In this document: piece after piece, positions 1 to 25,489 of the stretch
How positions within the stretch are numbered: position 1 is the stretch's first letter
How the letters are laid out: each line of letters begins with the position of its first letter
IMG/VR virus record: IMGVR_UViG_3300042375_000736
Span: 1-28,459 of that record
Length of the DNA stretch: 28,459 nt
From: a virus
Direction: 5' to 3' (one strand)
Made by a program: the position numbers and the translations under genes
Notes under the pieces: generated by a model
The model's input: only the letters and a program-made list of their open reading frames with translations
Database searches by the model: none
What the model was told of the DNA's origin: nothing

Positions 1-292
1 TGTTGATGCGGTAGAAATGCGCAATGTTGTCATCCACGACCCAGTGGCGTTTATGACCTTCATTGATTGAGTGCTCCCACACAAAGTTACGGACGGGAAT
101 ACTTCCCTGACCCAGATTCTTGAATGGCGTCACGATTAACTTTTTCGGGTCGATGACGGCAGCATACTTATCATACTCCTGTGGTTCAATGACCACTCGG
201 TATGGAACATTAATTACATCCAAAGAACGAACAGTGAGCCGAGACTCCCAACGACCTTTAGAAATGATGTATATTGGATATTTTGGATTCAT
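1..292 (-). CDS. TET-associated glycosyltransferase (TAGT family), N-terminal part, cut by window edge
   Basis: The ATG at 292 opens a frame that runs off the left edge after 97 codons. The product begins MNPKYPIYIISKGRWESRL and contains VIEPQEYDKYAAVIDP, LGQGSIPVRNFVWEHS and RHWVVDDNI. This series (SKGRW start, EPQEYD, G-x-x-x-RNF-x-W-EH, then a DDN acidic motif as the likely nucleotide-sugar/metal site) is what I know from the TET-associated glycosyltransferases of phages, which add sugar to 5-hydroxymethylated pyrimidines in DNA. The partner TET/JBP dioxygenase is not in the window. It starts 7 nt after the stop of the preceding gene and has no clear Shine-Dalgarno. The family call rests on remembered motifs; another GT-A-like glycosyltransferase is the alternative. 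Confidence 0.72.
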   Translation of the reverse strand, partial: MNPKYPIYIISKGRWESRLTVRSLDVINVPYRVVIEPQEYDKYAAVIDPKKLIVTPFKNLGQGSIPVRNFVWEHSINEGHKRHWVVDDNIAHFYRIN

Positions 293-299
293 GTCTTAT

Positions 300-890
300 T
301 TAGAGAGGATAAATTATTTTTTCTGCACTTGAGTTTTTTCTCATTAATTCACAACGACTGGGCCAATAAATTCTATATAAAAGTTCTGTTTCGAATAGGA
401 GATAGCCTTTATTTGTTTTTTCGGTACGACCCCTAATGATATTGCTTCTATCGGTATCGGCTTTAAAAATCTGAAGATAATCCCAATTTTTCTTCGCATA
501 ATTATTGGGGCCATAAGTCTGATATTGGATAAAATATAAATCAATATCACCCGTTGATTTTTCAGGAACATCATGTTCTTCATTCCACAATGTAGAATGT
601 CTGTTACGATTTCGCAGTTCCGAATAATGTGGAGGTTGTGTTTTAATTGAATAAAGTCTTCCATTAATTGAACCATCGGTGTCATCATACTGTTTCTTGG
701 AATCATAACAGTTTGGTTCAACATTAATACCATAATGGTTAAAAATCTGAACAAAGGCATCTTCTCCATAAAAGCCAAGAATACCACGGTTATTCTTTTG
801 CCAATAAGGCGTAGGAGGTGTGATAAAAATATCATCCCCATCCAATTCAGTTTTTACTTCATCATCAAAACCTAACAGCATATTACTCAT
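300..890 (-). CDS. unknown protein, possible PD-(D/E)XK-like nuclease
   Basis: 196 aa, starting MSNMLLGFDDE and ending IIYPL. I do not recognise a family with certainty. A helix-like segment GFYGEDAFVQIF (about 39-50) is followed by DDTDGSING and a strand LYSIKTQ (about 78-84). The spacing glutamate-helix, Asp-Gly, strand with x-x-K resembles a PD-(D/E)XK nuclease core, but the acidic residue before the lysine is replaced (SIK). The rest is rich in Tyr, Asn, Asp and Lys with no membrane segment. Its DNA is visibly richer in A+T than flanking replication genes, which suggests a later acquisition. It lies just downstream of gp43, has its own promoter-like motif and no Shine-Dalgarno, and is followed 7 nt later by the glycosyltransferase gene, so a role in DNA modification or host DNA attack is possible but unproven. 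Confidence 0.6.
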   Translation of the reverse strand: MSNMLLGFDDEVKTELDGDDIFITPPTPYWQKNNRGILGFYGEDAFVQIFNHYGINVEPNCYDSKKQYDDTDGSINGRLYSIKTQPPHYSELRNRNRHSTLWNEEHDVPEKSTGDIDLYFIQYQTYGPNNYAKKNWDYLQIFKADTDRSNIIRGRTEKTNKGYLLFETELLYRIYWPSRCELMRKNSSAEKIIYPL

Positions 891-900
891 ATTTAGAACT

Positions 901-929
901 ATTAAATCATTAAAAACAATAAATGTAAA
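901..929 (-). promoter_or_regulatory. early-type promoter for the 196-aa gene
   Basis: On the minus strand TTTACA (929-924) is followed after 17 bp by TTTAAT (906-901). The -35 motif overlaps the last bases of gp43 (stop at 930-932), giving the string TTTTGATTTACA shared with the promoter of gp43 itself. The -10 box ends 10 nt before the ATG at 890, leaving room for only a few untranslated bases. The -10 is weak (5 of 6). Confidence 0.4.
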
Positions 930-3536
930 TCAAAAAAAGAAGTTTTCAAGTGATGATGTCTCCTCACACTTCCAGCCGATTGCTTCAAAAATGATTTTGA
1001 TCGGGTCGAGGTAGGTCTTTTCAAATTGTTTGTCAAAGTCAATATGATTGTGGAGGTTGAATTCCTTGGGAATCACGTCGATGAATGAAATGACATTCTC
1101 ATTGATTGCATTGGGTGTACGAAGATAGATGAATTTGATTTTCTCGCCATTCTTGATTGTTTCGTACTTATTTAGAAGGTTCTTCATCTTGAGATGATGA
1201 TTGAACAGAAGACAACCGCGGACGTGAATAGGCGTAGTGCCGCCAGTACCTTTCTTGTAGATGGTATTTGAACTACGATAGCTGGAGATGTCCTTGGTAC
1301 CACGGGGAAACGCAATGTTTACGGGGTCGAGTGTCTTGAATTTATCGCGGAAGGCTTTAATTTCGGCTTGCGCTTCGGCTTCCGTTTTGGTTAGGATGAT
1401 TTTGAACATCCGTTTCATTTCGTCGCGGCAGATTTCCGGAGTCGATGACTTCACGGCTTCAATACCCATCACCTTGATTTTGGGTTCGGCATACTGAACG
1501 CCCTCATTGTTGTGGACGTTTAGGATGTAACGCTTCTTGGCGGTCCAGATACCACGGTCGGCAATTGCCTCACGTTTCATGATCATGCGGTTATCAGGGC
1601 AACCTACATTCTTGGCAAGTTTTTCATACGCATCCTTGAACACAGGCTCAATGGCTTTCGAGCAGAATTCATCCAAGAATTTCACGGGGTTGTTGGGCTT
1701 GAACATGTCGACAATGGGTTTCATTGTGACATACACCGAGTCGGTGTCAATGGCAATTACATAATCAACATCCTTAGTTTTGAGGACGCCGTTAAGGTAC
1801 TTGTTCACATTCATTTCTGCCCAACGGATTGCCGTCTGACCCGACAGAGTGGTACCCTCGGCAACACGGACATCAAAGTAATGAAAGTGTTTGTTACCAA
1901 GAGCACCGTAAAGTGAGTTCAGAAGAATTTTAAGGGCTACCTGATGATTCTCAAGACGACTGATTTCACGTTCAACCTTGAACCTAGCAACCTTGTCGGA
2001 CTTGTCGGTTTTCTCAAGTTTCTTCTTTTCTGCGATCATGTCCTTCTTCAGGACAACACGTTTGTCGTAAATGCCCTTGATGATTTCTGGAATGATGCCC
2101 TTGCGGTTGGGGTCGAACAGCACACCATTCGACGCAACAATGGCATTTTCATTTCCAAGTTGCGGGATGTTTCCGGCAAGAAGTTTGTCGGGATGGACTC
2201 CTTGCATCTGAACCGGAAGAATGGTCTCCGGCGACATATTGTATTGAATAATAAGATTGGGATACAGAGAGTTCAAGTCGAATGAACATACCCAATCATG
2301 AAAGCCAACCTTGGGGTCCTTCACATATCCACCGGCAAAAGAACCAGGTTCATCGCCTTCCTCGGCAAGGGCTTTCTCCTCGTCGGTCTTGGAACCGATG
2401 ATGGTATATTCGTAGCTTGGACGAATCGGCGCAACGGTGGGGATGATCTTGCGCGACATTAGATCACGGTAGATAATGGATTCCCAAATGGCAGTGGTAC
2501 CAAGAGTGTCGGTATAGTTTACGCCGCCGATGTAGGAGAGTGTAAGAACCAAGGTGATGAGACCAAGTTTATCCTCGAGGCGTTCCAGAAGTTCAACGTC
2601 CTTGATATTGTAATCGACATACTTTTGAAAGTTGTTTTTGTAGAGACCACCGAGGCTTCCGTATTCGGCATAGGACAGTTTTGTCTCATTCAGCACGATA
2701 TGGGCAATGTGTCCGAGTTTATAGGACTCCTGATTGCCGTAGGTGTTCAAGGTGAATTTACGGAAGAGGTCGAGATAGTCGAGCTGAGAGATGCCAACGA
2801 TTTCATAGGACAGTTTCGTCTGACCCATAATCGTTACATTTTTCTGACGAATGCAACCCTTGATTGTTGGCCATGGAGATAGCTTCGTGCAGGTCTTTTC
2901 ACCAAGTAGTTTTACAATACGGTTGATGATGTAGGGAACGTCGAAGAACCTAGAGTTCCAGCCCGTGAGAATGTCGGGCATGTTTTGGGTGTTTGACCAC
3001 CAGTCAAGGAAGCCCTGAAGCATTTCTTCCTCGCTACGATACTGCGTGTAGGCAACCTTGCCGGCAAAAATAGATTGGTCGGGGTCGAATGCTTTCACAC
3101 CCCACACGTTGAACATGTCGGAGTGATTGTTTTTGACCGTAATGACGGTAATAGGATATTCGGCGCGGTCGGGGTCGGGAAAGCCTTCATCCGAATGCAC
3201 TTCAATGTCTAATGACGACACATTCACCATGTCGCGGTTGAATTGGATTTCATCGGGAAATTGATTCTGAATGAAGTTGGTGACCCAACGGGTATTACCA
3301 TACACCTTGCCGGTGTGAGAATACATTTCCACAAACTCCTTGGCATCATTTAGAGAACCAAAAACATTTGGCTTCACCGGAACATCGGTAATCGACATGT
3401 AAGGCGACTGTGTCTCATCGACACCGAGAAACAATGTGGGCTTAAAATTGACCCTGTCCTTTACCCGGAGCCCATCACGATAGCCGCGATAGAGAATATG
3501 GTCACCGTAGGTTTGGACGTTTGTGTAAAATTCCAT
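930..3536 (-). CDS. 43: family B DNA polymerase, T4 gp43
   Basis: 868 aa (T4: 898), the replicative DNA polymerase with 3'-5' proofreading exonuclease. Exonuclease motifs: SSLDIEV (D110, E112), GWNSRFFDVPY (around 192-202) and YNIKD (Y309, D313). Polymerase motifs: A at SFDLNSLYP (D420), B at KILLNSLYG (536-544), C at IDTDSVY (D597, D599), and a later KKRY. All catalytic residues are present, so the enzyme looks active. The N-terminal part (1-100) matches the gp43 N-terminal domain, whose T4 counterpart binds its own mRNA; the C-terminus ends LENFFF, compatible with a clamp-binding hydrophobic tail. The ATG at 3536 has no Shine-Dalgarno and lies 8 nt after a -10 box, so the mRNA may be leaderless. 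It forms the replisome with gp45, gp44 and gp62 encoded just upstream. Confidence 0.98.
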   Translation of the reverse strand: MEFYTNVQTYGDHILYRGYRDGLRVKDRVNFKPTLFLGVDETQSPYMSITDVPVKPNVFGSLNDAKEFVEMYSHTGKVYGNTRWVTNFIQNQFPDEIQFNRDMVNVSSLDIEVHSDEGFPDPDRAEYPITVITVKNNHSDMFNVWGVKAFDPDQSIFAGKVAYTQYRSEEEMLQGFLDWWSNTQNMPDILTGWNSRFFDVPYIINRIVKLLGEKTCTKLSPWPTIKGCIRQKNVTIMGQTKLSYEIVGISQLDYLDLFRKFTLNTYGNQESYKLGHIAHIVLNETKLSYAEYGSLGGLYKNNFQKYVDYNIKDVELLERLEDKLGLITLVLTLSYIGGVNYTDTLGTTAIWESIIYRDLMSRKIIPTVAPIRPSYEYTIIGSKTDEEKALAEEGDEPGSFAGGYVKDPKVGFHDWVCSFDLNSLYPNLIIQYNMSPETILPVQMQGVHPDKLLAGNIPQLGNENAIVASNGVLFDPNRKGIIPEIIKGIYDKRVVLKKDMIAEKKKLEKTDKSDKVARFKVEREISRLENHQVALKILLNSLYGALGNKHFHYFDVRVAEGTTLSGQTAIRWAEMNVNKYLNGVLKTKDVDYVIAIDTDSVYVTMKPIVDMFKPNNPVKFLDEFCSKAIEPVFKDAYEKLAKNVGCPDNRMIMKREAIADRGIWTAKKRYILNVHNNEGVQYAEPKIKVMGIEAVKSSTPEICRDEMKRMFKIILTKTEAEAQAEIKAFRDKFKTLDPVNIAFPRGTKDISSYRSSNTIYKKGTGGTTPIHVRGCLLFNHHLKMKNLLNKYETIKNGEKIKFIYLRTPNAINENVISFIDVIPKEFNLHNHIDFDKQFEKTYLDPIKIIFEAIGWKCEETSSLENFFF

Positions 3537-3544
3537 TCAATAAC

Positions 3545-3571
3545 ACTATACCAACCGACGATGGTTGTAAA
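3545..3571 (-). promoter_or_regulatory. early-type promoter of gp43
   Basis: Minus strand TTTACA (3571-3566), 15 bp, TATAGT (3550-3545). The -35 begins one base past the TGA of the preceding gene (3574-3572). Only 8 nt (GTTATTGA) separate the -10 from the gp43 ATG at 3536, so transcription is predicted to start within about 0-3 nt of the start codon. The TTTAC core matches the -35 of T4 early promoters (GTTTAC). Confidence 0.6.
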
Positions 3572-4522
3572 TCAAAAAGTGACGGATTTGTAGGCAAACT
3601 CAATCGCTCTATCTGCTTCCGTGTGTAGAGGGCGTTTCTGGTAGATTCTTGCTGTATCCCTATCCAAATCCCTTACCATCTCTGCAATCTGCATACCCGT
3701 GATGGGATAGCGTTTCTTTACCGCATTACACGCAATGCTGGACATAATCTTATAGATCATTCGGTATCTTCCTGAACCATCTATAGATGAAATTGATTTG
3801 TATTCCTTAATGAGTGCTTTGTTTACAAACGGGCAGTCGAGATAGGAGTTCCAAGTAATTGTATTGTTGTTGGCTTGTTCCTTACGATGCTTTAGAATCT
3901 CCACTTGGATTGCCGCAGGAAACTTGTCCATAAGAGTTATGGATGGCTTCTCGGAATATGGATGCTGCGCCATGATTGCATCGGGGTCCATAATCTCTCC
4001 CGAATGCACGAGGATAAAATTATCGGCATCCGGATACTGAGCCGGAACATAGTACATTCGGCTTAGGTCCTTGGTCTGTTCATCTCCGATGGAACCAAAG
4101 TGCTTGTTCAAGGCGTACCAGAAATGCCGAATCTTATCGGCGGGAACAATCTTGTTCAATTGGAACACCACTCGGAACTTCTTTTTCTCCGGACGTGATG
4201 ACGCAGTTGAATAACAGATATGACGGTACTTCACATAGCGCCCGGCTGCTTCCTCAAACGAACAATCATATTCATCAACATCAAGTGCAGCCCAACCACC
4301 CCAACCAGTTACATTTGCATTTGCACGTGTGGCGCCTTCGGTATAAATTGCGGGAGAAATCAATGACGATGATTTCTTTTTCTCTCCCTTCTTGGCTTTG
4401 TAACCAGGAAGTTTGGAGAGTTGGAACATAAGTTTTTCAAAGTCCTCCCATGAAGCCACGGTGACTTTCTTGTCCGTCTTATTATCAAAGATGGAGTCGA
4501 ATACTGTAAGGGAATAATTCAC
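3572..4522 (-). CDS. putative archaeo-eukaryotic primase (AEP)-like protein with PriCT-like C-terminus
   Basis: 316 aa from a GTG start. Residues 74-86 (GWGGWAALDVDEY) carry an hhhDhD motif (D81, D83) as in motif I of AEP primases. YSTASSRP...KKFRVVFQL (104-122) resembles the second motif region with a basic residue before a hydrophobic strand, and KDLSRMYYVP (151-160) fits the downstream segment seen in AEPs of phages and plasmids. The C-terminal third (SGRYRMIYK... to the end) is helical and ends HTEADRAIEFAYKS, like the PriCT domain that often follows AEP domains. T4 itself uses the unrelated gp61 primase, so this may be an accessory primase-polymerase or an inactive relative. It sits between hsp20 and gp43 with its own promoter; the GTG has no Shine-Dalgarno and is 8 nt after the -10 box. 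Confidence 0.6.
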   Translation of the reverse strand: MNYSLTVFDSIFDNKTDKKVTVASWEDFEKLMFQLSKLPGYKAKKGEKKKSSSLISPAIYTEGATRANANVTGWGGWAALDVDEYDCSFEEAAGRYVKYRHICYSTASSRPEKKKFRVVFQLNKIVPADKIRHFWYALNKHFGSIGDEQTKDLSRMYYVPAQYPDADNFILVHSGEIMDPDAIMAQHPYSEKPSITLMDKFPAAIQVEILKHRKEQANNNTITWNSYLDCPFVNKALIKEYKSISSIDGSGRYRMIYKIMSSIACNAVKKRYPITGMQIAEMVRDLDRDTARIYQKRPLHTEADRAIEFAYKSVTF

Positions 4523-4530
4523 TGTACAAT

Positions 4531-4557
4531 CCTATACAAAGGTTGTCGGTATGTAAA
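4531..4557 (-). promoter_or_regulatory. early-type promoter of the primase-like gene
   Basis: Minus strand TTTACA (4557-4552), 15 bp, TATAGG (4536-4531), with 8 nt to the GTG at 4522. The -35 abuts the U-tract of the hsp20 terminator (TTTTGTTATTTACA), so terminator and promoter are packed in about 60 bp. Confidence 0.55.
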
Positions 4558-4561
4558 TAAC

Positions 4562-4592
4562 AAAAGAGTGGTGACCGTAAAAGTCACCACTC
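4562..4592 (-). terminator. intrinsic terminator after hsp20
   Basis: Perfect 10-bp stem GAGTGGTGAC / GTCACCACTC (4592-4583 and 4575-4566 read on the minus strand) with a 7-nt loop, followed by TTTTGTTATTT. It lies 20 bp after the hsp20 stop and would isolate late hsp20 transcription from the gene below. Confidence 0.85.
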
Positions 4593-4612
4593 GCACAAGA
4601 ACTAAAAGTTAA

Positions 4613-5032
4613 TTAGTCTTGAATGAAGGTTGAGCCAATCTCAATCTTCTTTGGGCGTTCCGATTCTGGAACAACCTTGGTGAGCGGAATCGAAAGGATT
4701 CCATTCTTAAGGTCGGCACCTTTTACCTGAACATGTTCCGACAGCGTAAAAGTTCTGGTGAACTTACGGGTCGAAATGCCCTTATGGTTGTAGATGCGTT
4801 CATCTTCCATTTCGCCGCTAACAGTAAGGATAGAATCCTTTAGCTGAATGTCGAGGTTCTCCTTAGAGAATCCTGCAACGGCGATTTCCACCAAGAAATT
4901 GTCGTCATCAATGAAAACGACATTATGCGGTGGGTATGTATCCTCTCTTAAGGAGACTCTGTTGAGCTCGTTGAAGAGATGGTCGAAGCCTACAAAGGCC
5001 GACCGTGGGAACGTGTATGTATTTCCTGACAT
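4613..5032 (-). CDS. hsp20: small heat shock protein, Hsp20/alpha-crystallin family
   Basis: 139 aa. The alpha-crystallin domain spans about 38-130: VAVAGFSKENLDIQLKD, ILTVSGE, RKFTRTFTLSEHV and LKNGILSIPLTK, the usual order of strands including the A-x-x-x-n-G-I/V-L signature (GADLKNGILSIPL). ATP-independent holdase chaperones of this type occur in T4-like cyanophages and some alphaproteobacterial phages and are thought to protect virion assembly or phage proteins. The ATG at 5032 has a strong Shine-Dalgarno (GGAGGT, 8 nt upstream). A perfect late-type promoter lies at 5121-5128 and a strong terminator follows, so this looks like a single-gene late transcription unit inside the replication cluster. 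Confidence 0.95.
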   Translation of the reverse strand: MSGNTYTFPRSAFVGFDHLFNELNRVSLREDTYPPHNVVFIDDDNFLVEIAVAGFSKENLDIQLKDSILTVSGEMEDERIYNHKGISTRKFTRTFTLSEHVQVKGADLKNGILSIPLTKVVPESERPKKIEIGSTFIQD

Positions 5033-5040
5033 GTTATTTT

Positions 5041-5046
5041 ACCTCC
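5041..5046 (-). promoter_or_regulatory. strong ribosome binding site of hsp20
   Basis: GGAGGT on the minus strand, 8 nt before the ATG at 5032. It is one of the few full Shine-Dalgarno sequences in the window and contrasts with the many starts that have none. Confidence 0.85.
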
Positions 5047-5120
5047 AGTTATGCAAGGTTATGTAATCTCCGACAACCCCAGTTGGGCATCATCGGTTGC
5101 TGACGTTGTGCCAGCAAACT

Positions 5121-5128
5121 TATTTATA
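5121..5128 (-). promoter_or_regulatory. T4 late-type promoter of hsp20
   Basis: TATAAATA on the minus strand, exact match to the T4 late consensus read by gp55. It begins at the base next to the regA stop codon. By the T4 rule (octamer at -13 to -6) transcription would start at 5115, giving an 83-nt leader. Confidence 0.75.
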
Positions 5129-5509
5129 TCACTTCGTATTGCCGATATTGTACTTTGGGAGCAATTCCCAATTACCTTTATCGCGGTACGGAATGATCTT
5201 AATCTGTCTCAATGGAGCCTTATCCTTGGACTGTTCTGCATTTACAATGGTAACCAGACCCCAATCGGAAAGAAGGGTGGCAATGGTATTCCGTCTTTGT
5301 AAATCATTTACATTTAGATTGGAAGGCTTGCCATCAAGGAGAAACAGCTCTTTGAAATGTACGATGAAATAGCGACCCTGCTTGTGTAGGATATGGCAGG
5401 ATTGGTATAGCTTGTTGGAAGACTTCCGAGAAGCTACACCGATGCGAGTAAGTGTCTCACGAACCTTAAGGAAATCATCCGGTTCATTCAAGGTAATCTC
5501 AAGCATCAT
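5129..5509 (-). CDS. regA: RegA translational repressor
   Basis: From the ATG pair at 5509/5506 the product is 126 aa starting MMLEITLNEPDDFLKVRETL, close to the start of T4 RegA (122 aa, MIEITLKKPEDFLK). LYQSCHILHKQGRYFIVHFKE and LLPKYNIGN at the C-terminus also match. RegA binds the initiation region of early mRNAs and blocks their translation; in T4 targets include genes 44, 45, 62 and regA itself. The frame is open upstream to a GTG at 5593 inside gene 62, adding up to 28 residues (DAQQTNQ...WIPA); the family alignment favours the internal ATG, yet no good Shine-Dalgarno precedes it. It follows gene 62 as in T4. Confidence 0.93.
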   Translation of the reverse strand: MMLEITLNEPDDFLKVRETLTRIGVASRKSSNKLYQSCHILHKQGRYFIVHFKELFLLDGKPSNLNVNDLQRRNTIATLLSDWGLVTIVNAEQSKDKAPLRQIKIIPYRDKGNWELLPKYNIGNTK

Positions 5510-5561
5510 AGCAGGAATCCATGCCACGGGAGTTTCGTCTACGACGATACCCGGGATAGGT

Positions 5562-5957
5562 TCAAGGCTTTGATTTGTTTGTTGAGCGTCCACCTTTAAA
5601 ATGTTTTTGTTTAAGTTCGTTTAGTTGGTCTGAACTCAAAATCGTCAAAGCGGATCTAGCCTTTTCATTACTATATCCATAATGTTCTTTAACAATCAAG
5701 AGGTCTTCCGACTCAGTTGGTTTTAGCCATTTGCTGAATCGTTTATTCCTACTAACTATATTTATAAGATACTCGTATTGGAGCCTCTTGTCCAGATGGT
5801 GGTTTTGGTTCATCTCATTCGCAAAACCAACCGTGTCTGGAAAGTATGAAAGACCTCTGTTAACCATGAACGGAACATATTGCTTTTCGGCAATGTCGTC
5901 GACCATGATATTAGTCTTGGTCATGTTGATGGAATTGAGGTATTCAAATGGGTTCAT
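5562..5957 (-). CDS. 62: clamp loader small subunit, T4 gp62
   Basis: 131 aa from the ATG at 5957, MNPFEYLNSINMTK. It is shorter than T4 gp62 (187 aa) but placed between genes 44 and regA and shares the pattern YVPFMVNRGLSYFPDTV and RNKRFSKWLKPTESEDLLIVKEHYGYS, matching T4 segments (SKFMVENALSQFPE; GKRYGKWAK). With gp44 it forms the 4:1 clamp loader that opens gp45. The frame also has an upstream GTG at 5978 within gp44; the ATG is preferred because GGAAG lies 7 nt before it and only 4 nt separate it from the gp44 stop. The C-terminus is basic (KGGRSTNKSKP). Confidence 0.9.
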   Translation of the reverse strand: MNPFEYLNSINMTKTNIMVDDIAEKQYVPFMVNRGLSYFPDTVGFANEMNQNHHLDKRLQYEYLINIVSRNKRFSKWLKPTESEDLLIVKEHYGYSNEKARSALTILSSDQLNELKQKHFKGGRSTNKSKP

Positions 5958-5961
5958 CGTA

Positions 5962-6909
5962 TTACTTCCATTCGGCACACGCCATAAGTTCGGTAATGCA
6001 CGCCACGAGGTTTAGCTCATGGTCGGCAACAAAGGCATCTTTGTATTGGTAATTGGCAAGAATGACCACGATGTTGGGTATGCTGTCGGGATTTGCATGC
6101 TCGGTCATATTGTCGTAAATCTTGCGGAAGATTGCCGCAGGTTCACAATCAATGTTGTTGACAACCCATGCACGACCAGCCTTGAAGTCCTTGTCCTTGA
6201 GAGCCTTGATCAACAGAGTGATGTTGGCGTCCGAAAGGTTTGCAAGGATGCCCTTGTCAATTTTACCAGAAACCGAATAGCGTTGGCACTCATTCAGCAC
6301 TCTGCGCCAGTCGGGAGCAAAGCGGAGGATGAGTTCGGCAACAACGGACTGCTCATATTGAATACCTTCTTCCTTGAGGATGAATTCAAGACGTTTTAGG
6401 AAAGCATTGGCAAGTGATGCCATTTGTTTCTTGGAAGTATTGAATTCAATTACGGCACAACGGGAATGCAATGGCTCGATGACGCGATTCTTAAAGTTAC
6501 ACGTGAGAATGAACCGGCAGTTGTTACTGAATTCCTCAATGAAGCCACGGAGCGCGGGCTGCGTGGAAGATGGATTCAGGTAGTCTGCTTCATCCAGGAT
6601 AATGACCTTGGGACCTCTTGACTGTAAGGACACCGATGACGCAAACTGGCGAATCTTGGTACGGAGAACATCAATGCCGGATTCTTCCGAGCCGTTAATG
6701 ATCATGTAGTCGAGGTCAAGCATGTTACACATTGCGCGTGCAACAGTTGTCTTACCAAGACCTGCGGTACCAGTGAGCAGCATGTTCTGCATCTCACCAG
6801 ACTCAACGATGCTCTTGAAGGTCTTTAGAAGACCCTCTGGAAGGATACAGTCGTCCAGTTTTTGTGGGCGGTATTTTTCAACCCACAGGAATTCATTAGA
6901 GTTTGACAT
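5962..6909 (-). CDS. 44: clamp loader ATPase large subunit, T4 gp44
   Basis: 315 aa (T4: 319), an AAA+ ATPase of the RFC/DnaX type. It starts SNEFLWVEKYRPQKLDDC as in RFC proteins. Walker A is GTAGLGKTT (about 47-55), Walker B is VIILDEADYL (about 103-112), and the SRC motif (HSRCAVIEF, about 149-157) supplies the trans-acting arginine. With gp62 it loads the gp45 ring on primer-template junctions. The ATG at 6909 has no Shine-Dalgarno; a -10 box TATAAT ends 8 nt upstream, so it can be transcribed separately from dsbA. Confidence 0.97.
   Translation of the reverse strand: MSNSNEFLWVEKYRPQKLDDCILPEGLLKTFKSIVESGEMQNMLLTGTAGLGKTTVARAMCNMLDLDYMIINGSEESGIDVLRTKIRQFASSVSLQSRGPKVIILDEADYLNPSSTQPALRGFIEEFSNNCRFILTCNFKNRVIEPLHSRCAVIEFNTSKKQMASLANAFLKRLEFILKEEGIQYEQSVVAELILRFAPDWRRVLNECQRYSVSGKIDKGILANLSDANITLLIKALKDKDFKAGRAWVVNNIDCEPAAIFRKIYDNMTEHANPDSIPNIVVILANYQYKDAFVADHELNLVACITELMACAEWK
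5965..5969 (-). promoter_or_regulatory. ribosome binding site deciding the gp62 start
   Basis: GGAAG on the minus strand, 7 nt before the ATG at 5957. It lies in the last codons of gp44 and supports the ATG over the in-frame GTG at 5978. Confidence 0.6.
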
Positions 6910-6917
6910 AGGGGTCT

Positions 6918-6947
6918 ATTATACACCAGTGACAATGGTCTTGTAAA
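6918..6947 (-). promoter_or_regulatory. early-type promoter of gp44
   Basis: Minus strand GTTTACA (core 6947-6942), 18 bp, TATAAT (6923-6918), a perfect -10. The promoter lies in the last codons of dsbA. The -10 is 8 nt from the gp44 ATG at 6909, predicting a leader of about 0-3 nt. Confidence 0.6.
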
Positions 6948-7179
6948 CCTCTTTAATCTCAGATGTTTCATTTTCAAACTCAACCACATTCTGTTTATGG
7001 TACATCATTGCGACCTTACGGAACGTCTTGGTTGGAAGTTTGTATTTGTCTTCCAGTGCTTTTAGAATCTCACGAATCTGCTCCTTTTGTGTTTGCATCT
7101 CCGACATAGCTTCGGAGATTTGATCGAGGGCGGTGAGGATGGCTTTGCGGTCTTCAGCCGAGGTAGGAATGTTGCTCAT
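6919..7179 (-). CDS. dsbA: DsbA-like double-stranded DNA-binding / late transcription protein
   Basis: 86 aa from the ATG at 7179 (MSNIPTSAEDRK). The C-terminal half LPTKTFRKVAMMYHKQNVVEFENETSEIKEVYKT aligns without gaps to T4 DsbA (VDGKMFNRLLALYHKDNRDVFEAETEEVVELYDT in my memory). T4 DsbA is a small dsDNA-binding protein that binds late promoter regions and enhances late transcription. The N-terminal half is a helix with regular charged and hydrophobic positions. In T4 dsbA is beside gene 33; here it lies between gp44 and an 81-aa unknown next to gp45. A TTG 39 bp upstream would add 13 residues encoded by the terminator stem and is less likely. Confidence 0.8.
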   Translation of the reverse strand: MSNIPTSAEDRKAILTALDQISEAMSEMQTQKEQIREILKALEDKYKLPTKTFRKVAMMYHKQNVVEFENETSEIKEVYKTIVTGV

Positions 7180-7181
7180 AA

Positions 7182-7217
7182 TAAAAAGTGGTGGGTTCTT
7201 TAATGACTGCCCCACCA
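7182..7217 (-). terminator. intrinsic terminator or hairpin upstream of dsbA
   Basis: Minus strand stem TGGTGGG / CCCACCA (7217-7211 and 7195-7189) with a 15-nt loop, then ACTTTTTATT. It follows the 81-aa gene and ends directly before the dsbA ATG, so it may be leaky and tune dsbA/gp44 expression. Confidence 0.6.
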
Positions 7218-7241
7218 AAAGTCCGTACGGAGTTAGAACAA

Positions 7242-7487
7242 TTAGGCTTTAGCTGGAGCCGGGGCTTCTTGCTTTGGCTCTTCGGTCGGCTTCGGGGTGC
7301 TTGCCTTCACGAAGGCTTCAAAGCGACCACGGAGGGCACCAATTGCGGTGAGTTCTGGACCTTCAAAGGCTCCACGACGGGAGACGATGTCGATCATTTG
7401 AACCACTGCGGCAAGGTCATTGAGACCGAGTTGCGGAGCGGCTGCTGGTTGCTGTTCTTGTTCTTGTATTACTTTGCTGTTGTCCAT
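7242..7487 (-). CDS. small conserved protein of unknown function between gp45 and dsbA
   Basis: 81 aa, MDNSKVIQEQEQQ at the start. The centre LGLNDLAAVVQMIDIVSRRGAFEGPELTAIGALRGRFEAFV (about 20-60) is a compact two-helix-like segment, with a Gln-rich N-terminal and a Pro/Ala/Glu/Lys tail (KPTEEPKQEAPAPAKA). I recall similar short proteins near gp45 in T4-like cyanophages but know no function. The ATG has AGGAA 7 nt upstream. Its place between the sliding clamp and DsbA, both late-transcription factors in T4, makes a role in clamp-coupled transcription or replication thinkable; sequence does not resemble T4 gp33. Confidence 0.8.
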   Translation of the reverse strand: MDNSKVIQEQEQQPAAAPQLGLNDLAAVVQMIDIVSRRGAFEGPELTAIGALRGRFEAFVKASTPKPTEEPKQEAPAPAKA

Positions 7488-7512
7488 ATATGTTTCCTAG
7501 GTTATCAACTTC

Positions 7513-8181
7513 TTAAGCGAACGTTGAAGTTTTTTCCAAAGCAATCCAATACTCCACCGGGAGCGTGGTATGCTTTAGATGAGAGATCAATTTAGAACTA
7601 ATCTCTACCGTGTAGTCACCGGAGACCATTTTAAGGTTTCCAATAACCAAAATGAATGAGAAAACCTCTTTGCAAGCATTGTTCTCATCAACCACGATGG
7701 AGTATTTATTCGCGGAGGCGTTCTTCGCGTCGGTAAGATTCACAACAATCTTACCATTTTCACCCTTGATTTCAATGTTGGCATGACCAAGAACCGACGA
7801 GGCTCTCTTGACTTTGTTCAACACATCTTCCGAAAGGATGAAGCTGACTTCTGGATTCGGCATTGTGACTTGCTTGGATGGAGCCGTGAGAAGGTCCATG
7901 GAAGCATAGAAATAACGAATGGAGGTCTTGCCGTCCTTAATGGTAATGGAATCATCACTGAAGGACAGTTCTGGATTCTCTACGAGAGCAAGAGTCGAAA
8001 GGAATTCATTGAGGTCATAGATACCAAATTCCTGTGGGAAGCTCTCGGTGATTGTGGCAGATGCCATGATATTCTTGGCTTCCGCAATTGTGGCAATAGA
8101 ACTACCGGGCTTGAACACCATGTTCGGATTGATTCCGGCAAAGTTCTTGAGGAGGTTAATTGTATTTTCTGATAGTTTCAT
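7513..8181 (-). CDS. 45: sliding clamp, T4 gp45
   Basis: 222 aa (T4: 228), beginning MKLSENTINLLKNFAGINPNMVF, as in T4 gp45. The trimeric ring tethers gp43 to DNA and, in T4, activates gp55-dependent late transcription. Two clamp-like halves are visible: residues 1-105 with FGIYDLNEFLSTLAL and SIRYFYAS, and 106-222 ending YWIALEKTSTFA, the usual PVEYWI/ALE-type final strand. It starts 2 nt after the stop of the DUF5664 gene; no Shine-Dalgarno is seen, so translational coupling is likely. Confidence 0.97.
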   Translation of the reverse strand: MKLSENTINLLKNFAGINPNMVFKPGSSIATIAEAKNIMASATITESFPQEFGIYDLNEFLSTLALVENPELSFSDDSITIKDGKTSIRYFYASMDLLTAPSKQVTMPNPEVSFILSEDVLNKVKRASSVLGHANIEIKGENGKIVVNLTDAKNASANKYSIVVDENNACKEVFSFILVIGNLKMVSGDYTVEISSKLISHLKHTTLPVEYWIALEKTSTFA

Positions 8182-8183
8182 AA

Positions 8184-8510
8184 TTAAAAAGATGTGTCTG
8201 CGTGTCCCTGATCATGTTCGTAGAGGAAAAAGAGACACGCAGCCGCGTGTCCTAGGTGATGTCGGCCCGTTTCAGGATCAAAACGCTCACCACGTTTCCA
8301 TGCCCAGAGATGGCGTTGGAGTGCATCATAATACCGACGTTCGGCTTCTGGTACATATCTCCAGTTTTCTCGGGCATATTTCTTGGCTCCGATGGTAAGA
8401 ACATGAGCAAGCTCCTCAAGTGCAAACGGAGGAATCAAACCGTATTCCGGCTTGTCCGTATCATATTTGCGACCTTCGGTCGGAGATTGCTGTTGGGGTT
8501 GTTCTTCCAT
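8184..8510 (-). CDS. DUF5664 dATP/dGTP diphosphohydrolase-like protein
   Basis: 108 aa. GRKYDTDKPEYGLIPPFALEELAHVLTIGAKKYARENWRYV, RRYYDALQRHLWAWKRGE and DPETGRHHLGHAAACLFFLYEHD form the full signature of the family Pfam calls dATP/dGTP diphosphohydrolase N-terminal (DUF5664), an all-alpha fold related to MazG-type NTP pyrophosphohydrolases. Acidic and His residues of the helices (EE in the first, DALQRH, DPETG..H) are the likely metal site. It may adjust the dNTP pool for the adjacent replisome genes. The start at 8510 has a pyrimidine-rich upstream tract and no Shine-Dalgarno, and follows a strong hairpin by 14 nt, which makes its expression unusual. Confidence 0.85.
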   Translation of the reverse strand: MEEQPQQQSPTEGRKYDTDKPEYGLIPPFALEELAHVLTIGAKKYARENWRYVPEAERRYYDALQRHLWAWKRGERFDPETGRHHLGHAAACLFFLYEHDQGHADTSF

Positions 8511-18448: not shown

Positions 18449-18913
18449 TCAGATAAATTCAAAGTAACTGTATCTGAAGGAAGCATCAACACTCACATAT
18501 TCCACATCGGTGGTCTGAGTGTGAAATTCAATGGCGCCAATGTTTGTGGGAAATGCATCAACGTAACGGATACGCTTGTTTGGGTTATTGCTCGATGTGA
18601 GAATATGGAGAATCATATCCGAGCACTTCCACTTGTCCTCTTGGGCATTGTTACGGATCCAGTTATAGAGTTCCGAATAGTTTTCCATGTTCTCCGAAAC
18701 AATGAAACGCATATCAAATGATGCGTAGTCCACGCGGTCGCCCGGAGTATATATTTGCTGGTTGCGGAAGGGGGTCGACACTTCTCCAAGGCTGAGTGCC
18801 GGAATGGATGTTACCGTACAGAAATACTCGAGGTTTGCAAATTCTTGTGAATTGATGCTAACCTTAAAACCTGTTGGCGAAAGGTAGTTCTTGTTCTGAG
18901 TAAGGTTATTCAT
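18449..18913 (-). CDS. gp19-family tail tube-like protein, second copy
   Basis: 154 aa. NYLSPTGFKVSI, FANLEYFCTVTSIPALSLGEVSTP, PGDRVDYASFDMRFIVSENMENYSELYNWIR and YVSVDASFRYSYFEF follow the strand order of the T4 gp19-like family (tail tube, and the related baseplate tube proteins gp48/gp54). The sequence differs strongly from the main gp19 at 24959-25489 and is 22 residues shorter, so it probably has a special position such as the tube end or neck. It stands alone between the gp23 terminators and uvsY, with a perfect late promoter 5 nt from its ATG. There is no Shine-Dalgarno. Confidence 0.82.
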   Translation of the reverse strand: MNNLTQNKNYLSPTGFKVSINSQEFANLEYFCTVTSIPALSLGEVSTPFRNQQIYTPGDRVDYASFDMRFIVSENMENYSELYNWIRNNAQEDKWKCSDMILHILTSSNNPNKRIRYVDAFPTNIGAIEFHTQTTDVEYVSVDASFRYSYFEFI

Positions 18914-24958: not shown

Positions 24959-25489
24959 TTAGACTCTAGATTGAGCTGATTCCCAATAGAGCATTTGAAG
25001 CTCTACGCCGAATTCTTCAATTGTATTTTCCGAGTCATAGCTCAGATCAATTGCGGATACGGTTGTTGGGAAAACGCCACGAATATCGTAACGCTTTGAA
25101 ACAGCTCCACCCTTATTCAGTTGCTCAACAACCATATCGGTTGTGTAGGAAGCTGGATTGGTGAGACCAGTATTGGTTGTGTTGTTATTGATACCATTGA
25201 CCCAACGCTCGAAAGCATTGCGGATATCCATGTTAACATCGTTGATAACAGTAATACCCCAGGCTTCAAATACACGGTCTCCTGCGACCTGCATCTGACG
25301 ACCACGGAATGGGATTGTGATAGGGCTAATGATCGATGATGGAAGCTGAGCTGCCTTGATCATGAATGATGCAAGTTCAGTATTTCCGCGAGCATAAGCT
25401 GGGAAATTGCAGGTAACCTTGAAAAGGTTATTGCGAGCGCCACCACCGACGAGTTTTGACTTAAAGTCTGTAATTCCTAGAACGGCCAT
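24959..25489 (-). CDS. 19: tail tube protein, T4 gp19
   Basis: 176 aa (T4: 163). MAVLGITDFKSKLVGGGARNNLFKVTCNFPAYA, IPFRGRQMQVAGDRVFEAWGITVINDVNMDIRNAFERWVNGIN and IDLSYDSENTIEEFGVELQMLYWE match gp19, which stacks as hexamer rings to form the inner tube. The ATG has AAGGAGA 9 nt upstream. It follows gp18 by 30 nt in the same late unit. Confidence 0.97.
   Translation of the reverse strand: MAVLGITDFKSKLVGGGARNNLFKVTCNFPAYARGNTELASFMIKAAQLPSSIISPITIPFRGRQMQVAGDRVFEAWGITVINDVNMDIRNAFERWVNGINNNTTNTGLTNPASYTTDMVVEQLNKGGAVSKRYDIRGVFPTTVSAIDLSYDSENTIEEFGVELQMLYWESAQSRV

Follow-up and report, generated by a model that had tools for sequence, protein, structure and literature searches.

A gene cut off by the left edge of the window (the whole analysed DNA stretch, 28,459 bp, which is the entire IMG/VR record IMGVR_UViG_3300042375_000736) almost certainly encodes a glycosyltransferase of the TET-associated (TAGT) family. 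We consider it fairly probable, and the most likely explanation, that this gene belongs to a two-gene DNA-glycosylating cassette lying between gene 43 and uvsX, in which TAGT is paired with a previously undescribed domain of about 70 aa, named MPEF because of its motif. On its gene content, the source is an uncultured T4-like phage: gp43, gp62/44/45, regA, gp46/47, gp55, uvsW/uvsY, gp23, gp20, gp18 and gp17 were recognisable in the window, and the core replication and head genes (gp43, gp44/62/45, regA, gp23, gp17) place it among T4-like phages. Among phage records and isolates, its gp43 was best matched by the polymerase of Phage C48C1 (47% identity). Two separate tail-tube-like genes (phrog_45) flank the head genes at window positions 18449-18913 and 24959-25489. 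Near-identical contigs were found by a scan with the window gp43, and the overlapping ones reach 9-10 kb left of the window; scans with ThyX and terminase found no longer contig of this group. The features used below are as follows.

292..2, minus strand: first 97 codons, from the ATG, of a TAGT (PF20691) glycosyltransferase of predicted GT-A type, open at the left edge
300..890, minus strand: ORF of 196 aa of no known family, between gp43 and TAGT, an optional insertion
930..3536, minus strand: T4-type family B DNA polymerase gp43, one boundary of the gp43-uvsX modification slot
3572..4522, minus strand: primase-like protein (phrog_9765)
L002:7592-8188 (overlapping contig): remaining 198 TAGT codons, off the left edge of the window
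L002:8181-8498: 105-aa MPEF ORF, downstream of TAGT and overlapping its end by 8 bases
108048..100530 of the sister phage G115 (L330): gp43-uvsX slot with gp42, dCMP deaminase, a PLP-dependent enzyme (phrog_7093) and proteins of 387 aa and 332 aa

The window spans the entire record, which is why the TAGT ORF is cut short; contig L002, which is 99.95% identical to window positions 1-7592 and continues leftward, holds the complete gene of 295 aa at its positions 7301-8188. In hmmscan the window part matched a single Pfam family, PF20691 (E=1.4e-18; 68 bits, with a curated cut-off of 27.5 bits; profile positions 1-95 of 205), and its PHROG match was phrog_842, "beta-glucosyl-HMC-alpha-glucosyltransferase" (E=4.4e-16), so the match is far beyond chance. 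This confirmed the original prediction that a TAGT-family enzyme begins here. The full-length protein fits the TAGT profile too: the homologue on L006 covered the whole PF20691 domain (1-205 of 205, 139.9 bits, E=1.4e-40). The DDN motif occupies residues 87-89 (window 34..26), and D87, D88 and N89 together with N168, E169 and D170 are invariant across phages, forming the DxD-like and ED motifs typical of GT-A enzymes. For an AlphaFold2 model of the fused TAGT homologue at L308:6708-7823 (pLDDT 87.9, pTM 0.86), the PDB matches from Foldseek were GT-A enzymes that use UDP-sugars (best E 5e-6, at a low TM of about 0.35); in a viral structure library the model matched TAGT proteins and, with E 1.2e-9, a T-even-type beta-glucosyl-HMC-alpha-glucosyltransferase. 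The motifs and the homologue's model together predict a GT-A nucleotide-sugar fold. TAGT is under strong purifying selection, with dN/dS values of 0.02-0.08 among window-group members; this, and the intact gene in other contigs, ruled out a chance ORF or a decaying gene.

The gene order in the window group is gp43, the optional 196-aa ORF, TAGT, the 105-aa ORF, uvsX, a protein of about 121 aa, gp41 and, further on, ThyX, while in T6 the same interval reads gp43, further genes, gp42, TAGT, uvsX, 40 and 41 (identities assigned from position and sequence). Since the gp43-uvsX interval is a recognised site of DNA-modification genes in T4-like phages (survey, PMC8056088), a DNA-modification role of TAGT is a reasonable inference from position. 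A modification segment had been expected to run past the left edge, and TAGT, the 105-aa MPEF protein and uvsX were indeed found there in overlapping contigs. The gene had also been placed just after gp43 and a "nuclease-like" gene; the order was right (gp43 3536..930, ORF 890..300, then TAGT, all on the minus strand), but the "nuclease-like" label was not upheld, as the 196-aa ORF had no Pfam, NCBIfam, PDB or structure match. This ORF occurs in L002 and L003, and the contig of L240 has a copy with 87% identity; L004-L009 lack it, and it has no relatives elsewhere in IMG/VR. The primase-like phrog_9765 gene also differs in position: it lies upstream of gp43 in the window, whereas the sister phage and other T4-like phages with TAGT have it inside the slot.

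That sister, G115 (IMGVR_UViG_3300042898_004347, 140 kb), is collinear with the window in the genes that they share, which are 52-95% identical, mostly above 75%; gp43 reaches 59%. Its gp43-uvsX interval contains neither TAGT nor MPEF, and holds instead the gp42-containing set listed above, whose gp42 shows the gp42-type motif and 60% identity to that of T6. The slot seems, from these gene contents, to exchange modification cassettes, TAGT and MPEF in the window group versus gp42 in the sister. The 332-aa protein of G115 had only a marginal resemblance to beta-GT (E=0.07). As a separate observation, the G115 slot could be an amino-acid-based cytosine hypermodification cassette.

The 105-aa ORF belongs to no Pfam, PHROG or NCBIfam family, and is homologous to approximately 100 residues at the N-terminus of TAGT proteins from Aeh1, POP12, 65, PTm1, 1.076 and 1.124 (hhalign 97%, E=1.6e-11); an MPEF homologue is fused to TAGT in Kuja also. 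Its motif is W..MPEF ... Q.iT.KTkSIWyP, and its dN/dS in the window group is 0.02-0.13. The model of MPEF alone (P0004) was poor (pLDDT 71.5, pTM 0.39) with no Foldseek match, and a sequence search of the PDB gave no convincing match. A TAGT-alignment scan of IMG/VR returned at least 595 related stretches, from which 80 loci were kept, 79 of them new. MPEF was fused or adjacent to TAGT in 72 of the 79; among the seven exceptions, TAGT was at the contig edge in three, L303 was broken up near an edge, L241 ended after a second TAGT, and L289 and L307 had MPEF about 0.9 kb upstream. No MPEF was found in 218 control loci without TAGT (2.36 Mb), a convenience sample fetched by other queries. The window group, with MPEF at L002:8181-8498, belongs to this MPEF-associated clade. 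On the TAGT tree, in which bootstrap support had not fully converged, the window protein fell in a supported clade (99/97) that comprises 24 rows, most of them from T4-like phages; MPEF is directly downstream in 23 of them, the remaining row (L241) is cut off, and a single change on the tree suffices to explain the "downstream" state. Some T4-like members have a second, divergent TAGT paralogue that forms its own clade (L284:13470-14309, L257:11236-12093, L259:9638-10501 and L241:4366-5253) and may add a second sugar.

Other architectures were also found. A protein of approximately 215 aa that ends in MPEF lies directly upstream of TAGT in about 20 loci, and the one such protein tested has a ParB N-terminal domain (PF02195, 1e-12) resembling phage ParB-DNA-methyltransferase fusions (phrog_498, 1e-31). 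The parts are joined in one 528-aa ORF in L282, whose N-terminal portion was unrecognised by Pfam. An MT-A70 methylase precedes the module in six loci. In several T4-like loci the gp43-uvsX interval also holds genes for phosphomannomutase, nucleotidyltransferase, epimerase and UDP-glucose dehydrogenase; comparable sugar genes occur in C48C1, which lacks TAGT, so they are not specific to TAGT, and no sugar-nucleotide genes were found in the available sequence of the window's own group.

Putting these results together, we regard DNA as the best reading of the acceptor, with somewhat better than even confidence, on family precedent, position, cassette exchange and the methylase and ParB links. 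TAGT would move a sugar from a nucleotide-sugar donor onto phage DNA bases at or after replication, and the donor could be made by the host, or by the phage in relatives with the phosphomannomutase, nucleotidyltransferase, epimerase and dehydrogenase genes. MPEF may act as a substrate-binding or positioning partner of TAGT, and the sugar on phage DNA would protect it from nucleases.

How the base would obtain a hydroxyl for the sugar is where the narrower readings part. No enzyme creating an acceptor hydroxyl was found in the records searched, and PF13640 was absent from the 18 records searched for it. A tentative possibility, which we hold at well below even confidence, is that MPEF (with or without ParB) and TAGT form a self-contained DNA glycosylation system with neither TET nor a nucleotide-level hydroxymethylase, an undescribed route in which MPEF would recruit or present the DNA. 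The original prediction had proposed a route different from that of T4, and this may hold, given that the slot lacks gp42 as well.

Also doubtful is the T4/T6-type route, in which the window phage would encode, at another place in its genome, a dCMP (or dUMP) hydroxymethylase that supplies hm-dCTP, and TAGT would glycosylate hmC after replication. The T6 TAGT operates in this way, the gp42 in the sister's same slot fits it, gp42 occurs in other T4-like relatives too, and PF00303 (gp42/thymidylate synthase) proteins, which may be plain thymidylate synthases, occur in most of the isolates searched whose TAGTs are nearest (Aeh1, PTm1, Kuja, POP12, henriette and 65). However, gp42 is absent exactly where the sister has one, and PF00303 was found neither in the window-group contigs nor in any of 50 TAGT contigs, including T4-like ones of 177 kb (L284, probably close to a full T4-like genome) and 121 kb, while T6 gp42 was detected as positive control. 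T4-like members of the TAGT clade carry ThyX instead. The gp42 of the T4/T6 hmC system was therefore missing from the searched sequence, in which the window phage is represented by an incomplete genome. In addition, the phages reported to carry gene 42 do not include Aeh1 or 65 (PMC2993671). T4 relatives without gene 42 "probably lack major modifications" of dCMP, as judged from the restriction sensitivity of some of them (PMC2993671), which cautions against bulk cytosine modification.

A comparably doubtful reading is that the acceptor is not DNA, and that TAGT and MPEF glycosylate a protein, for example of replication or packaging, or a glycan of the host envelope; among non-DNA readings, glycosylation of LPS or protein is the chief rival. 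Proteins or polysaccharides are the substrates of the PDB fold neighbours of the L308 model. A large terminase gene follows the module at about 1.7 kb in 26 loci, and Vibrio phage 1.076 has the module between its portal and head genes. A role in LPS is often assigned to phage sugar genes, and LPS modification is how the sugar-gene clusters and glycosyltransferases of marine T4-like phages have been interpreted (PMC7029224, PMC7824862). Against this, the T2/T6 enzyme of the family acts on DNA, TAGT sits in the replication cluster at a DNA-modification slot, a gp42 cassette stands in place of TAGT and MPEF in the sister, and the module has ties to ParB-like and MT-A70 methylase genes.

TET/JBP is an unlikely source of the TAGT acceptor, and we give very little weight to the idea that 5mC or T in the phage DNA is oxidised to 5hmC or 5hmU by a TET dioxygenase encoded elsewhere in the genome, and then glycosylated by TAGT. 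TET linkage gave the TAGT family its name, and hydroxymethylation by TET/JBP had been predicted from the TAGT motifs; the T2/T6 enzyme that adds a second glucose to hmC is, however, a PF20691 protein that acts downstream of gp42, not TET (PMC13216743, PMC13390438), and as gp42 supplies the hmC that it uses, a TAGT need not mean a TET partner. The TET gene anticipated to the left of the window was not found over about 9-10 kb of overlapping contigs. The TET/JBP model PF12851 had no match in the window-group contigs searched, in 50 of the longest contigs of the 79-locus survey (up to 334 kb, 2.1 Mb in all), or in the genomes of the seven isolates whose TAGTs are nearest (Aeh1, PTm1, Kuja, POP12, 1.076, henriette and 65). 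C48C1 and P12024L were matched as positive controls in the isolate and window-group search, so the search works; that of the 50 contigs gave no control match. The TET/JBP dioxygenase of a coupled system was thus absent from the records of this clade that were searched, although the larger part of the window phage genome is unseen. Nonlabens phage P12024L does carry TET, TAGT and a methyltransferase in a row, and a scan based on this phage gave three loci, all from one phage group. TET also occurs in some T4-like phages (Cr30, S-CBWM1 and C48C1, whose polymerase is nearest to the window's among isolates), but C48C1 has TET without TAGT. In C48C1 itself (OQ984149.1, L323:5584-9028), the TET/JBP gene is followed by a 344-aa ORF and a UDP-galactopyranose mutase gene (PF03275, E 5.6e-52), a possible galactofuranosyl DNA modification locus.

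These results bear on how such genes are named and studied. The names "TET-associated" (PF20691) and "beta-glucosyl-HMC-alpha-glucosyltransferase" (phrog_842) have been carried over to proteins without TET, gp42 or alpha-GT partners, and neither public name suits what accompanies the TAGTs of the window clade, with its at least 595 matching IMG/VR stretches. A 2026 study flagged 288 phage genomes with TAGT but without alpha- or beta-GT as possible sources of novel transferases (PMC13216743). With MPEF as a nearly constant partner, with links to ParB and methylases and with the gp42-cassette swap, that question gains a concrete two-protein module, for which Aeh1, PTm1 and henriette are isolates whose DNA can be measured.

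Compared with known systems, the T6/T2 beta-glucosyl-HMC-alpha-glucosyltransferase shares the family (PF20691/phrog_842), the predicted GT-A fold and the slot between gene 43 and uvsX/40/41, but has no significant BLAST match to the window TAGT; T6 combines gp42 with alpha-GT and no MPEF was seen there, whereas the window clade has MPEF and no gp42 was found. The TET-linked TAGT of P12024L belongs to the same Pfam family at about 22% identity, but it lies between a TET/JBP gene and a methyltransferase, has no MPEF and is separated by a very long branch. Closer are the solitary TAGTs of Aeh1, phiAS5, Ah1, 65, PTm1, Kuja, henriette 12B8 and POP12, whose catalytic domains are 41-46% identical to that of the window and which share an MPEF homologue where examined, fused in most and a separate upstream ORF in henriette. 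They differ in that MPEF is N-terminal or upstream, not a separate downstream gene, and in lying outside the gp43-uvsX slot in the regions examined. The arabinosylation cluster of RB69/Mosigvirus is also T4-like and has sugar-nucleotide and transferase genes near the polymerase and uvsX, as in the marine relatives of the window clade, but it uses a hodCMP synthase of the TS superfamily (PMC13390438), whereas the searches of window-clade contigs turned up no PF00303 protein.
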